25,445 bases of DNA from a virus. Numbering within the stretch: position 1 is the stretch's first letter; each line of letters starts with the position of its first letter. The notes beneath the pieces were generated by a model. It was not told the DNA's origin. It saw only the letters and a program-made list of their open reading frames with translations, and did no database searches. The DNA lies in IMG/VR virus record IMGVR_UViG_3300047673_000063, positions 1 to 25,445 of that record; one strand, 5' to 3'. Positions 2,042-23,043 of the stretch are shown one piece after another. The position numbers were made by a program, and so were the translations under genes.

Positions 2042-4315
2042 ATGACTGAAGCGCGCGCACAGGGCGATACGCAGCTCTCGACCGACAACACCGTCACGCG
2101 ATGGGTGAAGGAGATCGAGCTATACGAATCCAAGGCTTCCGAATGGGAGACCAAGGCGAAGAAGATCCTGCGCCGGTACAAGGACGAGCGTAACGCGCGC
2201 GAGGGCAAGGAAAGCCGCTACAACGTGCTGTGGTCGAATATCCAGACGCTGCTGCCGGCGCTCTATTCGAAGAACCCGAAGCCCGATTTTCAGCGCCGGT
2301 TCCTCGATGCCGATCCCGTCGGCCGTGTTACGTGCCAGATTCTTGAGCGTGCAACGAGTTTCACGCTCGACAAGGAAGATTTCTTCCTGACCGCGCGCCA
2401 GTGCGTGACCGATCGCCTGCTGCCGGGCCGCGGTACGGTCTGGATTCGCTATGTGCCGCACTTCGCCGAGGGTGGCGAGGGCATGCTTGGCAATGAAGGC
2501 CCGGAAATCGACGATGACGCGGACGCCAATCAGGCGCCTGACGTTGAGCAGCATGCATCGAGCGGCGAGCCCATCGTTGATGTCGAATATGAGGAAATCG
2601 ACATCGATTATGTGCACTGGTCGGACTTCGGGCACACCATCGCGCGCACCTGGCAGGAAGTCCGCGCTGTGTGGCGCATCTGCTATCTGACGCGGCCGGA
2701 ACTGGTCAAGCGTTTCGGCGCGGAAAAGGGCGGGCGCGTGCCGCTCGACTACAAGCCCGAGGATCTGAAGGGGCAGGAAGTCACCGAATACCAGCAGAAG
2801 GCCCGAATCTACGAGATCTGGGACAAGAGCACGAAAAAGGTGATCTGGCTGTCCAAGGGAATGATGTTCGAGACGCTCGACGAGCGCGACGACATGCTGG
2901 GGCTTGAAGGCTTCTTCCCCTGCCCGCGTCCGATGCTTCCGAACCACGCGAACGACACGGTTATACCGGTCCCCGACTACGCGATGTATCAGGATCAGGC
3001 GAATCAGCTTGACGATCTGACATCGCGCGCGAAACTGCTTGCTGATGCGCTGCGCGTGGTGGGCGTCTACGATTCGAGCACGCCGGGTTTGCAGCAACTA
3101 TTGTCGGGCGGCTATGAAAACCGGCTCGTTCCGGTCGATTCGTGGGCAGCATTCGCCGAGAAGGGCGGCATGAAAGGCGCGGTAGAGCTACTGCCGATGG
3201 ACATGATCGCGCAGACACTGCTGAGCCTCTACGACACGCGCGAGAAGGTCAAGCAGGACCTATATGAGATCACCGGCATGGCCGACATCATCCGTGGCTC
3301 GACTGATCCAGACGAAACCTATGGCGCGCAGAAGATCAAGTCGAACTGGGCGTCGATCAGGCTCGTTGACATGCAGGCCGAGGTTCAGCGTTTCGCTCGC
3401 GATGTCGTCGTGCTGGTGGCTGAAGTGCTGGCGAACCAGTTTGACATCAAGACGCTTGCCGAGATTTCCGGCTATCCGCTAATGACGCAGCAGGAAAAGC
3501 AGATCGCGCAGATGATCCAGCAGGCGGGCGGCCAGCTTCCCGACGACATGGAAAAGCCGTTCACTGAGCCGACATGGGAAGAGGTCGATAAGCTCCTGCG
3601 CGATTCCAATATGCGTCATTTCCGGCTCGACATCGAGACCGATTCGACGCTGAAGATGGACCAGATGCAGGAGAAGCAGGACCGCACTGAATTCCTGACG
3701 GCGGTCGGCGGCTTCCTGAAGTCGGCAGACGGTGCAGACCCGTCACTCATGCCGCTGCTCGGGCAGATGCTGATGTTTGCCGTTCGAGCTTTCCCTGTTG
3801 GCAAGCAGATGGAATCCTGCCTGCAGGAGACGGTGGACGCGCTTGAGAAGCGGGCCAAGCAGGCGATGCAGAATCCGCAGCCGAATCCTGAGCAGGTCAA
3901 GGCGCAGACGCAACTTCAGATCGCGCAGGGCAAGCAGCAGGGCGATATGCAGGCAGAGCAGTTGCGCGGCCAGATCGAGATGAAGAAGCTGCAGCAGGAG
4001 GCCGAGAACGACCGCCAGAAGGCCCAGCTAGACGCATGGGTAGCGCAGATGGAGCAGCGCGCGCAGGCCCAGCAGGCGGCACAGGAGCAGCAGCTTGAAG
4101 CTCAACGTAATGCGATGGACGCGCAGAATCAGGTGATGATCGAGCGCATGAAGGCGCACATGGAGCAGCAGACGGAAGGGCTGAAGCAGTCCATGGCCGT
4201 CCTGATCGCGCAGATGAACAACGCGCGCGCCATCGAAGTTGCCGAAATCGGCGCTCAGTCGGCGCTCGATACCGCACAAATCAGCGCGGCGAATGCCGCA
4301 ACCTCGGGGGAATGA
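2042..4315 (+). CDS. Portal protein (podovirus, P22-like size)
   Basis: The 757-residue product is the expected size for a large podovirus portal (P22 portal is about 725). A portal is a dodecameric ring at one capsid vertex that gates DNA entry and exit and seats the tail. The N-terminal half has the usual pattern: a helical start (WVKEIELYESKASEWETKAK), RYNVLWSNIQTLLPALYSKNP, a stem/clip-like region, then YDTREKVKQDLYEITGMADI followed by RGSTDPDETYGAQ, which is characteristic of phage portals of this class. From about residue 620 to the end the protein is a Gln/Ala/Glu/Met-rich helical segment, consistent with the C-terminal barrel of P22-type portals. It begins four bases after the previous stop, and its stop overlaps the start of the zinc ribbon gene. 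The terminase genes expected nearby are not in the window. Confidence 0.9.
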   Translation: MTEARAQGDTQLSTDNTVTRWVKEIELYESKASEWETKAKKILRRYKDERNAREGKESRYNVLWSNIQTLLPALYSKNPKPDFQRRFLDADPVGRVTCQILERATSFTLDKEDFFLTARQCVTDRLLPGRGTVWIRYVPHFAEGGEGMLGNEGPEIDDDADANQAPDVEQHASSGEPIVDVEYEEIDIDYVHWSDFGHTIARTWQEVRAVWRICYLTRPELVKRFGAEKGGRVPLDYKPEDLKGQEVTEYQQKARIYEIWDKSTKKVIWLSKGMMFETLDERDDMLGLEGFFPCPRPMLPNHANDTVIPVPDYAMYQDQANQLDDLTSRAKLLADALRVVGVYDSSTPGLQQLLSGGYENRLVPVDSWAAFAEKGGMKGAVELLPMDMIAQTLLSLYDTREKVKQDLYEITGMADIIRGSTDPDETYGAQKIKSNWASIRLVDMQAEVQRFARDVVVLVAEVLANQFDIKTLAEISGYPLMTQQEKQIAQMIQQAGGQLPDDMEKPFTEPTWEEVDKLLRDSNMRHFRLDIETDSTLKMDQMQEKQDRTEFLTAVGGFLKSADGADPSLMPLLGQMLMFAVRAFPVGKQMESCLQETVDALEKRAKQAMQNPQPNPEQVKAQTQLQIAQGKQQGDMQAEQLRGQIEMKKLQQEAENDRQKAQLDAWVAQMEQRAQAQQAAQEQQLEAQRNAMDAQNQVMIERMKAHMEQQTEGLKQSMAVLIAQMNNARAIEVAEIGAQSALDTAQISAANAATSGE

Positions 4316-4728
4316 TGCCGCTCTATACCTATCGCTGCACCATCTGTGACCACGATCGGCAGGAGTTTCGAAAGATCGCAGACCGGGACCGCGCGCCCGA
4401 ATGCGACAGAGAGACTATCCCCGAGGATCTTGGCGAGGACGAAGAAAGCATGCGGTGGACTTGCGGCCATGAGATGCAGCGCATCATCGAAGCGCCTATG
4501 GTCGCGCCCGACATCGGCCCATATCAGGCGGTCGCCGTCGATGTCGCCACCGGCAAGCCGCCAGTGATCAACAGCCGCAGCGCGCACCGAGACTTCCTGA
4601 AGCGCAACGGCTATACGGAAGTCGGAAACGAGCGCGTCGGACGCAAGCCCGGCGAGGTACGCGGCGATTTCAACCTGCGCAAGGAACTGACGAAGGCCAC
4701 GCGCGAAGTCTTGGGGAGGGGGAAATGA
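4315..4728 (+). CDS. FmdB-type zinc ribbon protein
   Basis: Two adjacent ATGs (4312 and 4315) are possible. The second is preferred because it gives better spacing to the GGGGG at 4306-4310 and the usual family start MPLYTYRC. The N-terminus holds CTIC (Cys8 and Cys11), then Cys30 and a CGHEM segment with Cys50, which fits a zinc ribbon of the FmdB regulatory type with a long acidic insertion between its knuckles. The basic C-terminal half (NSRSAHRDFLKRNGYTEVG, then KELTKATREVLGRGK) could contact nucleic acid or the portal. Phages of this kind often carry such a gene next to the portal gene. Its start overlaps the portal stop (TGATG), implying translational coupling. The role in the virion or host is not established. 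Confidence 0.75.
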   Translation: MPLYTYRCTICDHDRQEFRKIADRDRAPECDRETIPEDLGEDEESMRWTCGHEMQRIIEAPMVAPDIGPYQAVAVDVATGKPPVINSRSAHRDFLKRNGYTEVGNERVGRKPGEVRGDFNLRKELTKATREVLGRGK

Positions 4729-4868
4729 TCGGCGCTTTCATGCCGCGCCTTCTGGCGCAACTTCAGCAGATCAAGATGCAGGCGATGCAGCAGGCGATGC
4801 AGCAACAGCAGCCACCGCAAGCGCCACCGATGCCGCCGCAAGGCATGCCACCGCAGCAGATGCATTGA
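4725..4868 (+). CDS. 47-residue Gln/Met/Pro-rich miniprotein
   Basis: An ATG at 4725 overlaps the stop of the zinc ribbon gene (ATGA) and is preceded by a strong purine-rich site, GGGGAGGGGG, at 4713-4722. The frame runs to TGA at 4866-4868. The product begins MIGAFMPRLLAQLQQIKMQA, continues with MQQ repeats and ends in a Pro-rich tail (PPQAPPMPPQGMPPQQMH). Its helical Gln/Met half resembles the C-terminus of the portal. The very good ribosome binding site, the coupling overlap and the position between portal and scaffold genes argue for a real gene. It may be a small helical head-assembly or connector factor; no family is recognised. Confidence 0.6.
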   Translation: MIGAFMPRLLAQLQQIKMQAMQQAMQQQQPPQAPPMPPQGMPPQQMH

Positions 4869-4882
4869 TTGCCGTCCAGATT

Positions 4883-4919
4883 CCCGCTACCTAGCATGTA
4901 CCGCATGCAAATAAGCGGG
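4883..4919 (+). promoter_or_regulatory. Two-tier hairpin overlapping the scaffold gene ribosome binding site
   Basis: The outer stem pairs CCCGCT (4883-4888) with AGCGGG (4914-4919). The inner stem pairs GCATG (4894-4898) with CATGC (4904-4908), closing a TACCG loop. The two stems are separated by a symmetric 5 x 5 internal loop (ACCTA and AAATA). The 3' arm supplies the only purine-rich site (GCGGGG, 4915-4920), seven bases before the scaffold ATG at 4928, so folding would hide the ribosome binding site. The pairing is read directly from the sequence; a control role is inference. Confidence 0.5.
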
Positions 4920-4927
4920 GATTGGAA

Positions 4928-5959
4928 ATGACGGTCGAAAGTCAGGTGGGCGAAACGGGCGAAGTCGGGCAGGAAACAGAGCTGTCACTGCGCGACGAAC
5001 TGGTCAAGAACCTCGCCGATCTGAAGGGCGATCCTGAGGCTGTCGAGCCAGTTGTAAAGCCGACGGAAACGAAGGTTGTCGAGCCCACTGACGCCGCGCC
5101 GAATAAGGCCGCGAGCGAGACCAAAGAGCCGAATACAGCCGAATCGTCGAGCGAGTCGAAAGCCAAAGCCCCGCAGTCCTGGTCGGCCGCCGAAAAAGCG
5201 CATTGGGACAAGATCCCGCCCGAAGTTCAGGCCGTCATCGCGCGCCGCGAGGAAGAAGCGCACCGCGGCATCACGACGCTCGGCCAGGATGCTGCGCTCG
5301 GCAAGAAGCTCAAAGACGTAATTAACCCCTATCTCCCGATGATCCGCGCAGAAGGCGGCGACGAAGCCGGCGCGGTTCGGGATCTTCTCCAGACTGCCTA
5401 CATTCTGCGCACGGCCGGCCCCGAACAGAAGATTGGCGTTTTCCGGCACCTGGCAGGACAGTTTGGAGTGGATTTAGCAGTCGCTGCGCAAGGCGTCCCG
5501 CAAGTTAGCCCCGAGTTGCAATCACTCCGCCAGGAGCTTGCCCAACTCAAAGGCCATCTGACGAGCACCGAGCAGCAGCAACATCAGCAGATACAGGGGC
5601 AGGCTCAAGCCATGATCGAAGCCTTCGCTGCCGATCCTAAGAACGAGTTCTACGAACAGGTGAAGCCGCTCATGGCCCATCTCCTGGTCGCGGGACAGGC
5701 TAAGGATATGCAGGAGGCGTACGACATGGCGTGCCATGCGAACCCTGATGTTCGTTCCACAATTCTGACCCGCCAGCAGGCGGATGCAGAGGCGAAGCGG
5801 GCAGCCGAGGCGAGAGCCAAAGCTGATGCGAAGCGTAAAGCGGCAGGATCAATCAGCGGATCACCGGCGGGCACTGTCTCGACGACGATTGCAGCGAACC
5901 CTGACCTCTCCCTGCGCGATCAATTGCGGCAAGCGATGCGCGCCGCGACAACTTCGTAA
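4928..5959 (+). CDS. Probable scaffolding protein
   Basis: The ATG at 4928 is preferred to the in-frame TTG at 4922 because of spacing from GGGG at 4917-4920. The 343-residue product is highly charged, with a disordered acidic N-terminus rich in Glu, Thr, Pro and Val (VGETGEVGQETELS, VEPVVKPTETKVVEPT), a middle helical segment with PQSWSAAEKAHWDKIPPEV followed by QAVIARREEEAHRG, a Gln-rich helix (STEQQQHQQIQGQAQAMIEA) and a basic Ala/Lys/Arg coiled coil near the end. Its place between portal and major capsid genes and its composition fit a scaffold that directs procapsid assembly and then leaves or is degraded. The WSAAEKAHW and HRGI elements recur in phage proteins at this position. The motif LSLRDxL occurs near both ends. 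Confidence is good for the role, moderate for family. Confidence 0.75.
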   Translation: MTVESQVGETGEVGQETELSLRDELVKNLADLKGDPEAVEPVVKPTETKVVEPTDAAPNKAASETKEPNTAESSSESKAKAPQSWSAAEKAHWDKIPPEVQAVIARREEEAHRGITTLGQDAALGKKLKDVINPYLPMIRAEGGDEAGAVRDLLQTAYILRTAGPEQKIGVFRHLAGQFGVDLAVAAQGVPQVSPELQSLRQELAQLKGHLTSTEQQQHQQIQGQAQAMIEAFAADPKNEFYEQVKPLMAHLLVAGQAKDMQEAYDMACHANPDVRSTILTRQQADAEAKRAAEARAKADAKRKAAGSISGSPAGTVSTTIAANPDLSLRDQLRQAMRAATTS

Positions 5960-5977: not shown

Positions 5978-6967
5978 ATGGCCCTGCAAAATCCGTCGAG
6001 CACTCTCACGGAAATTGTCACGACCACGCTTCGCAATCGCACCGGGAAGCTGGCTGACAACATCACGAAGAACAACGCCCTGTTGTTCCGCCTCCGCAAG
6101 CGCGGCAACGTCAAGACCGTTTCCGGCGGTCGGACCATCGTTCAGGAACTCGAATACGCCGAAAACGGCACGTTCAAGCGCTACAGCGGTTATGAAGCGC
6201 TGAACATTTCGCCGTCCGACGTGTTCACCGGCGCGGAATACAACTACGCGCAGGCAGCCGTGGCCGTCTCGATCTCCGGTCTGGAACAACTCCAGAACAC
6301 CGGCGAGGAAGCGATCATCGACCTGCTCGAATCGCGTATCAAGAACGCGGAAAAGACGCTCGTCAACAACATCGCGCTCGACTGCTACTCGGACGGCACC
6401 GCTGATGGCGGACGGCAGATTGGCGGCCTCGCGCTGCTCGTGTCGAACACGCCGACGACCGGCGTGGTGGGTGGCATCGACGCATCGACGACCGTCGGCA
6501 GCTTCTGGCGCAACCTGAAGTTCTCGGGTGTCACGGACGGCGGCGGCGCCACGACCTCGGCGAACATCCAGTCGTACATGAACCGCCTGTACGTGCAGCT
6601 CGTGCGTCAGACGGACAAGCCGGATCTGATCATCGCCGACAACAACTATTTCCGTCTGTATCTGGAATCGTTGCAGGCCATCCAGCGCATCACGTCGAAC
6701 GAAATGGGCGAAGCGGGCTTCGACTCGCTGAAGTACATGAATTCGGACGTGGTGCTCGACGGCGGCTTCGGCGGCGGCGCACCGGCAAGCACGATGTATT
6801 TCCTGAACACGGATTACATCTACTTCCGCCCGCACGTCGATCGCAACTTTGCACCGATCGGCGACGACCGGTATGCAGTCAATCAGGACGCGATGGTCAA
6901 GCTGGTCGGCTTCGCCGGCAACATGACCACGTCCAATCGCCGCCTTCAGGGCGTGCTGATCGCCTAA
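5978..6967 (+). CDS. Major capsid protein
   Basis: The 329-residue product starts at ATG 5978 with TTGGAG upstream. It follows the scaffold gene directly and has the features of a phage capsid shell protein: an N-terminal helical stretch with TTLRNRTGKLADNITKNNAL, a basic loop (RLRKRGNVKTVSGGRTIVQE), a long alpha-helical spine region (NTGEEAIIDLLESRIKNAEK) and beta-rich C-terminal parts with DLIIADNNYFRLYLESLQAI. The C-terminal portion contains YIYFRPHVDRNFAPIG, like the terminal strands of related podovirus shells. Size and gene order (scaffold, capsid, small decoration protein) resemble Bordetella phage BPP-1-type heads, which have an HK97-like fold with altered topology; that relationship is inference. 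No protease gene is seen nearby, so the shell may be built without proteolytic maturation. Confidence 0.85.
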   Translation: MALQNPSSTLTEIVTTTLRNRTGKLADNITKNNALLFRLRKRGNVKTVSGGRTIVQELEYAENGTFKRYSGYEALNISPSDVFTGAEYNYAQAAVAVSISGLEQLQNTGEEAIIDLLESRIKNAEKTLVNNIALDCYSDGTADGGRQIGGLALLVSNTPTTGVVGGIDASTTVGSFWRNLKFSGVTDGGGATTSANIQSYMNRLYVQLVRQTDKPDLIIADNNYFRLYLESLQAIQRITSNEMGEAGFDSLKYMNSDVVLDGGFGGGAPASTMYFLNTDYIYFRPHVDRNFAPIGDDRYAVNQDAMVKLVGFAGNMTTSNRRLQGVLIA

Positions 6968-21766: not shown

Positions 21767-21853
21767 ATTGGTTATCGGCAGGGTTGCCGAAATCTTTACC
21801 GGGCTCCACATAAATTCTCTTGAAGTATCGGGCTCGCCTTCCTAGCTTGGAAG

Positions 21854-21876
21854 TTCGACCCCGGTCCCCGGCACCA
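21854..21876 (+). other. Probable att core: 3' end of a tRNA gene
   Basis: TTCGACC (T-loop), CCGGT (3' side of the T-stem), CCCCGGC (3' side of an acceptor stem), A and CCA occur in the exact tRNA order, but the upstream bases do not complete the T-stem and no 5' half exists nearby. Only the last ~23 bases of a tRNA are present, as expected for a phage attachment core that restores the tRNA after integration. The acceptor arm implies a host tRNA starting GCCGGGG, possibly a leucine tRNA. It lies 154 bases before int. Confidence 0.65.
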
Positions 21877-21965
21877 CCAACTATATACAAGTTTCTACGG
21901 TCAGTGAAGAAATTTGTGTAAACAAGGGCTTAGGCTAACCATGAGTTAGCCCTGTTAGGTGCCGA

Positions 21966-22029: not shown

Positions 22030-23043
22030 ATGGCCTCGATTACCCAGCAGCCGAACGGCAAATGGCGGGCGCAAATCTTCGTCAAGGGACGGCGCGATAC
22101 ACAGGTGTTCAGGACGCAGCGCGAGGCCAAGTCATGGGCCGTGTCGCGCGAGGAAGAAATGCGCCGACTCAGCGGCGTGCCGGAAGATGAAAAGCACACG
22201 CTGAAGCAGGCGCTAGAGCGCTATATCGAGGAAGTGACGGAGAACAAGAAAGGGGTCCGTCACGAGACATTGCGCATTCAGGCTTTCATCCGGGACTTCC
22301 CGGAAGTGGTGAGTTTGCCGCTCGCCGAGGTCAAGACGCCGGTGCTGGCCGGATGGCGGGATGCCAGGCTGAAGAAAGTCGCCGGCTCGACCGTCAACCG
22401 CGACATCAACTGGCTTCGCAATGCTCTTCTGACGGCGCGAGATGAGTGGCACTGGATGACGCATAACCCGTTCGCCGGGTTCCGCTTCCCGAACGATCCT
22501 CCGCCGCGGGACAGACGAGTGACGCCAAAGGAAGTCAGGGCGCTGTGCCGGGCCTGCAACTACGTCACCGGCCGTACACCTATCAGCAAGACTCAGGAGG
22601 TCGCCTATGCGTTCCTGATCGCCCTGAGAACGTCAATGCGGATGGGGGAGATTGTTTCACTGGGTGCATATAATGTGGACCTGAAGAAACGCACGGCGAC
22701 GCTCTCGCACAAGATGCAGTATCTGACGGGCAAGCCTCGTGTTGTTCCTCTGACGCGCCATGCAGTTAGGTTGCTGAAGCCGCTGGCCACCAGGAAGCAG
22801 TTCTTCACGATCACGGCCGCGTCTCTGGAAACTTTGTTCAGGAAGGAGCGCGCGCGGCTGGCGATCACGATGCCGGAAATTGCGACGATGCATTTTCATG
22901 ACACGAGGGCCGAGGCGCTTACCCGGCTGTCGCGGAAGGTCGATGTGATGACGCTGGCGAAAATTAGCGGGCACAAGGACCTGTCCATTCTGCAGAATAC
23001 GTACTATCGCGAGTCGGCCGAGGATATTGCCGCACGGCTCTAG
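22030..23043 (+). CDS. int: Tyrosine integrase
   Basis: The 337-residue product starts at ATG 22030 without a clear ribosome binding site. The N-terminal arm-binding domain (MASITQQPNGKWRAQIFVKG) is followed by a core-binding SAM-like domain (residues ~55-150) and the catalytic domain. All active-site residues are visible: Arg204 in SMRMGEI, Lys235 in TGKPRVVPL, His290 and Arg293 in HFHDTRAEAL, His315 in ISGHKD, and the nucleophile Tyr325 (or 326) in QNTYYRES. It would integrate and, with an excisionase, excise the phage at the tRNA-derived att site just upstream. It faces the excisionase-like gene, and both stops share CTAG. Confidence 0.93.
   Translation: MASITQQPNGKWRAQIFVKGRRDTQVFRTQREAKSWAVSREEEMRRLSGVPEDEKHTLKQALERYIEEVTENKKGVRHETLRIQAFIRDFPEVVSLPLAEVKTPVLAGWRDARLKKVAGSTVNRDINWLRNALLTARDEWHWMTHNPFAGFRFPNDPPPRDRRVTPKEVRALCRACNYVTGRTPISKTQEVAYAFLIALRTSMRMGEIVSLGAYNVDLKKRTATLSHKMQYLTGKPRVVPLTRHAVRLLKPLATRKQFFTITAASLETLFRKERARLAITMPEIATMHFHDTRAEALTRLSRKVDVMTLAKISGHKDLSILQNTYYRESAEDIAARL

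Follow-up and report, generated by a model that had tools for sequence, protein, structure and literature searches.

A likely promoter lies within a hairpin that may silence the scaffold gene of temperate phages on read-through messages

Tailed phages need far more scaffold and coat protein than portal protein, all from adjacent genes. In the window (the whole 25,445-nt stretch of viral DNA that was analysed), a hairpin covers the start of a scaffold gene and raises the question of whether, and by what means, it controls scaffold synthesis. We call the gene scaffold because it lies between a portal gene (phrog_12082) and a major head protein gene (phrog_9953). Its product had no match in Pfam, PHROG or the PDB and no detectable sequence relation to any solved structure, that of the P22 scaffold among them. 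The protein is predicted, with low confidence (pLDDT 67), to be all-helical; near-copies of one motif, LSLRDELVKNL on the N-terminal side and LSLRDEL on the C-terminal side, occur at its two ends, and both are predicted to be helical. Elsewhere in the window, positions 21838-21878 resemble the 3' end of a tRNA gene (GGAAGTTCGACCCCGGTCCCCGGCACCA) and adjoin a phage integrase gene (22030-23043), making this segment a possible attachment site. The genes and the parts of the hairpin are as follows:

4880-4888, + strand: 5' arm of the outer stem (ATTCCCGCT), from folding
4894-4908, + strand: inner stem-loop GCATGT-ACC-GCATGC, from folding
4914-4922, + strand: 3' arm of the outer stem (AGCGGGGAT), holding the Shine-Dalgarno (SD) run GGGG at 4917-4920, from sequence and folding
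4928-5959, + strand: scaffold gene (by position), start codon ATG at 4928-4930, between the portal and major head protein genes
5978-6967, + strand: major head protein gene (phrog_9953, E 8e-134), likely on the same transcript

An earlier note on this DNA had described nested stems, CCCGCT/AGCGGG and GCATG/CATGC, separated by a symmetric internal loop, with the only ribosome binding site of the scaffold gene in the 3' arm. Both descriptions were correct. The outer stem (CCCGCT 4883-4888 with AGCGGG 4914-4919) grows to nine pairs that join 4880-4888 to 4914-4922, the inner stem pairs GCATGT (4894-4899) with GCATGC (4903-4908), and between them lies a 5x5 internal loop (4889-4893 and 4909-4913); GGGG is the sole SD-like run before the scaffold ATG. 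The hairpin segment folds at -17.9 kcal/mol, compared with a mean of -10.2 (sd 2.4) for dinucleotide shuffles (z -3.2), and only 1 in 200 shuffles folded as well. An Rfam search of the window returned no family at the gathering threshold. An intrinsic terminator was rejected because the U run is absent: after the 3' arm comes GATTGGAAATG, with no run of T/U, and a terminator scan calls none there.

Relatives gathered by scaffold or capsid from viral contigs and genomes gave an alignment of 18 distinct leaders; the scaffold proteins downstream share 47-98% identity with that of the window. The leaders share a near-invariant pattern, TTGC-N19-TAGCAT-N5/6-CAT, in which TAGCAT with its preceding C, and the CAT, are the same in all 18 and TTGC in 17 (L026 has TAGC). 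Of 16 phage records, 15 contain the pattern and none contains a reversed control pattern. In the window it corresponds to promoter-like hexamers that the earlier note had missed and that overlap the 5' half of the hairpin:

4869-4874, + strand: putative -35 element TTGCCG (TTGC in 17 of 18 distinct relatives; B. cenocepacia -35 consensus, TTGCC)
4892-4897, + strand: putative -10 element TAGCAT, the same in all 18 relatives, separated from the -35 by 17 bp and lying over the 5' half of the hairpin
4904-4906, + strand: predicted transcription start region CAT, invariant and 5-6 nt past the -10, with A4905 as the presumed +1

The 17-bp spacer, found in all relatives, falls within the 16-18 bp of sigma70-type promoters. 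Mapped sigma70 promoters of Burkholderia cenocepacia have the consensus -35 TTGCC and -10 TAnAAT (PMC4603805). The phage elements share the TTGCC and a TAnAAT-like -10, which differs from the consensus in the G and C at its third and fourth positions; the fit is better than to the Escherichia coli consensus, matched at 8 of 12 positions. From this anatomy and its conservation we infer promoter activity and a start at A4905, and a sigma70-type promoter for the scaffold and capsid genes is likely at this locus. Conservation has a sharp profile: mean information (bits per base, ungapped) is 0.33 upstream of the -35, 1.92 in TTGC, 2.00 in CTAGCAT and 1.68 in CAT, with the boundary exactly at the -35. 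A repeated family of late promoters was rejected, as the window holds a single copy of the pattern and so do most related records; the second matches in G490 and G500 have different spacings. RNA begun at A4905 would open with an AUG and an eight-codon frame, MQISGDWK (4905-4931), which ends on a stop codon shared in part with the scaffold ATG (ATGA). This frame is also present in L006 and L007 and is not conserved elsewhere.

The surroundings of the promoter also point to a break between portal and scaffold. In most relatives the conserved block begins 0-4 nt from the end of a small upstream ORF. Three relatives, L006 (76 nt), L007 (313 nt) and L022 (225 nt), carry extra sequence at exactly this joint. 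The L022 insert holds a Lar restriction-alleviation gene in antisense orientation (3644-3868, - strand; PF14354, E 8e-13), and the promoter downstream of it is intact; the L007 insert at the same joint had no Lar match. Among 74 distinct distant relatives, six have an intrinsic terminator just before scaffold and none has one at two control positions. Given the conservation boundary at the -35, the inserts and these distant terminators, the portal-scaffold joint looks like a transcription boundary. The small ORF itself (4725-4868, MIGAFMPRLLAQL...) encodes 47 Gln/Pro-rich residues, closely precedes the promoter in most relatives and had no Pfam or PHROG match. In the Rhizobium relatives (L075, L106, L110, L119 and L125) the leader carries a different conserved sequence, with AACGGGCATCAATCCCCGAAATAGGA common just before the scaffold start and a short potential stem.

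Where the promoter sits could decide what the hairpin does. The -10 element and the conserved CAT lie downstream of the 5' arm, which occupies the promoter spacer, and the arms of the inner stem coincide with the -10 and the start region. With the -10 inside the hairpin, RNA begun near 4905 would lack the 5' arm, and thus the hairpin would matter in read-through RNA only. The predicted unpaired probability of the window SD is 0.00 in read-through RNA versus 0.76 in promoter RNA, and this calculation puts the cost of opening it at 18.7 kcal/mol in the former and 2.0 kcal/mol in the latter, absolute values being dependent on flank length. We infer from the predicted folding that read-through messages are repressed and that this serves scaffold dosage: RNA reading through from the portal genes would carry both arms, fold and yield little scaffold, and RNA begun at about A4905, free of the outer 5' arm, would have an accessible SD in a leader of 23 nt and be translated. 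The scaffold-capsid pair would then be served by its own promoter, scaffold would be poorly made from read-through RNA, and its output would be tied to that promoter. The best-conserved feature of the locus being a promoter inside a hairpin, the gene probably relies for its expression on short messages from its own promoter and is muted on long ones, as for T4 lysozyme. The earlier note had proposed a control element at the scaffold start; the element and the hidden SD stand, and the conserved promoter changes their meaning.

Does selection act on the stem itself? The 18 relatives gave no convincing covariation, the score being equalled by 35 of 500 shuffles. Only one of the nine outer pairs (4880/4922) is altered on both sides with pairing retained, and C4883/G4919 becomes G·G in five relatives; a hand-corrected count with one gap shifted in L023 gave the same picture. 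These results weigh on two other readings of the hairpin. The first is a feedback switch in which scaffold translation would be repressed by free scaffold protein, as the earlier note suggested, or by another ligand, acting on the hairpin. P22 offers a precedent, its scaffold synthesis being autoregulated after transcription, and a stable fold positioned at the scaffold SD would suit such a switch. The stem shows no convincing covariation, however, the hairpin would be absent from promoter-started RNA, relatives such as L100 keep the scaffold gene and lose the pairing, and comparison of the protein with solved scaffold proteins detected no similarity. We therefore regard feedback of this kind as very improbable.

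The second reading is that the DNA holds a host-type promoter for scaffold and capsid and nothing more, the hairpin being a by-product, without a regulatory role, that arises from GCAT in the -10, CATGC in the start region and the GC richness of the SD. The lack of convincing covariation in the stem fits this reading, as does the persistence of the promoter in L023, L302 and L100, where the hairpin is weak or absent and the SD is hidden little more than by chance. On the other hand, the SD has an unpaired probability of 0.14 or less in predicted read-through RNA of 16 of the 18 relatives. Window-wide, the scaffold ATG ranked 44th of 421 start sites in opening cost in one context; this cost varies with flank length, and we therefore used permutation tests in which the promoter, SD and start were held fixed, the rest was permuted and the cost of opening the SD was the statistic. 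Of 13 sequences, 8 hid the SD beyond this null at P<=0.05 (window, 0.010; L013, L022, L025, L026 and L332, 0.003 or less; L010, 0.018; L005, 0.050), with P values that are not independent across sequences; L007, L009, L023, L302 and L100 showed no significant hiding. A second permutation null agrees in outline. Members of the L005-L011 group are predicted to form another helix, GCATC with GATGC, that could hide the SD; it showed no covariation across the set. The spacer adds a further objection to a promoter without a hairpin function, for its 5' arm block is far better conserved than its first half (1.65 versus 0.75 bits, ungapped). A by-product hairpin thus seems rather unlikely, and there is moderate support for an SD hidden in read-through RNA.

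The conserved spacer could also have a function in DNA. Its core, TTNCCG, is present in all 18 relatives and is kept, with the promoter, in the Robbsia relative L100, which has lost the partner arm; retention without its partner points to a DNA-level role. The inverted arms over the promoter might then be an operator bound by a phage activator or repressor, with the RNA hairpin incidental, and hexamers as weak as these might need an activator. Against this, the half-sites are centred about 31 bp from each other, a large separation for a simple dyad, many relatives have imperfect arms, and no regulator was identified. We consider an operator improbable, though less so than feedback by scaffold protein. 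The reading that we favour, with roughly even confidence, is a promoter for scaffold and capsid whose -10 lies inside an SD-hiding hairpin that silences read-through messages, and a translational gate on such RNA is plausible from the predicted folds. More generally, an eye-catching hairpin at a ribosome binding site can be in part the footprint of a promoter, and conservation boundaries and covariation can tell the two apart.

If the favoured reading holds, this group of temperate phages may set scaffold dose by transcript origin, with only RNA from the dedicated promoter making scaffold, a proposal that we advance somewhat more tentatively. The locus suggests a simple solution to unequal demand from neighbouring genes: a dedicated promoter and a hairpin that mutes read-through, so that the dose follows one promoter. 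Such control would differ from P22 feedback. What the two cases would share is the site of control, the scaffold gene, in a phage where this gene is paired with that of the capsid; here the analysis gave no support to sensing of the scaffold protein, and the point at which transcription begins best accounts for the proposed control. The closer likeness is to gene e of T4, in which late promoters lie inside an SD-hiding hairpin, a proven arrangement in which the structured, upstream-started RNA yields about 100-fold less lysozyme (PMC3014915). At both loci a promoter occupies the 5' strand of the hairpin, which in our predictions would likewise hide the SD in the long RNA and expose it in the promoter-started one. 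They differ in that T4 relies on a late sigma promoter of its own (TATAAATA), with a measured effect, whereas the window has a predicted host-type promoter before a head gene. Transcript origin also decides SD access at the hairpins of T4 I-TevI and Aeh1 mobE (PMC2988022). The predicted logic is the same, although those are homing endonuclease genes that have no sequence relation to the window locus. Two features of this class are predicted for the window, where upstream-started RNA would bury the SD in a stable hairpin and the promoter is placed so that its RNA would lack the 5' arm. By analogy, and with no claim of homology, the locus would work like T4 gene e, and the principle of a promoter within a hairpin would reach beyond lysozyme and homing genes into head assembly.
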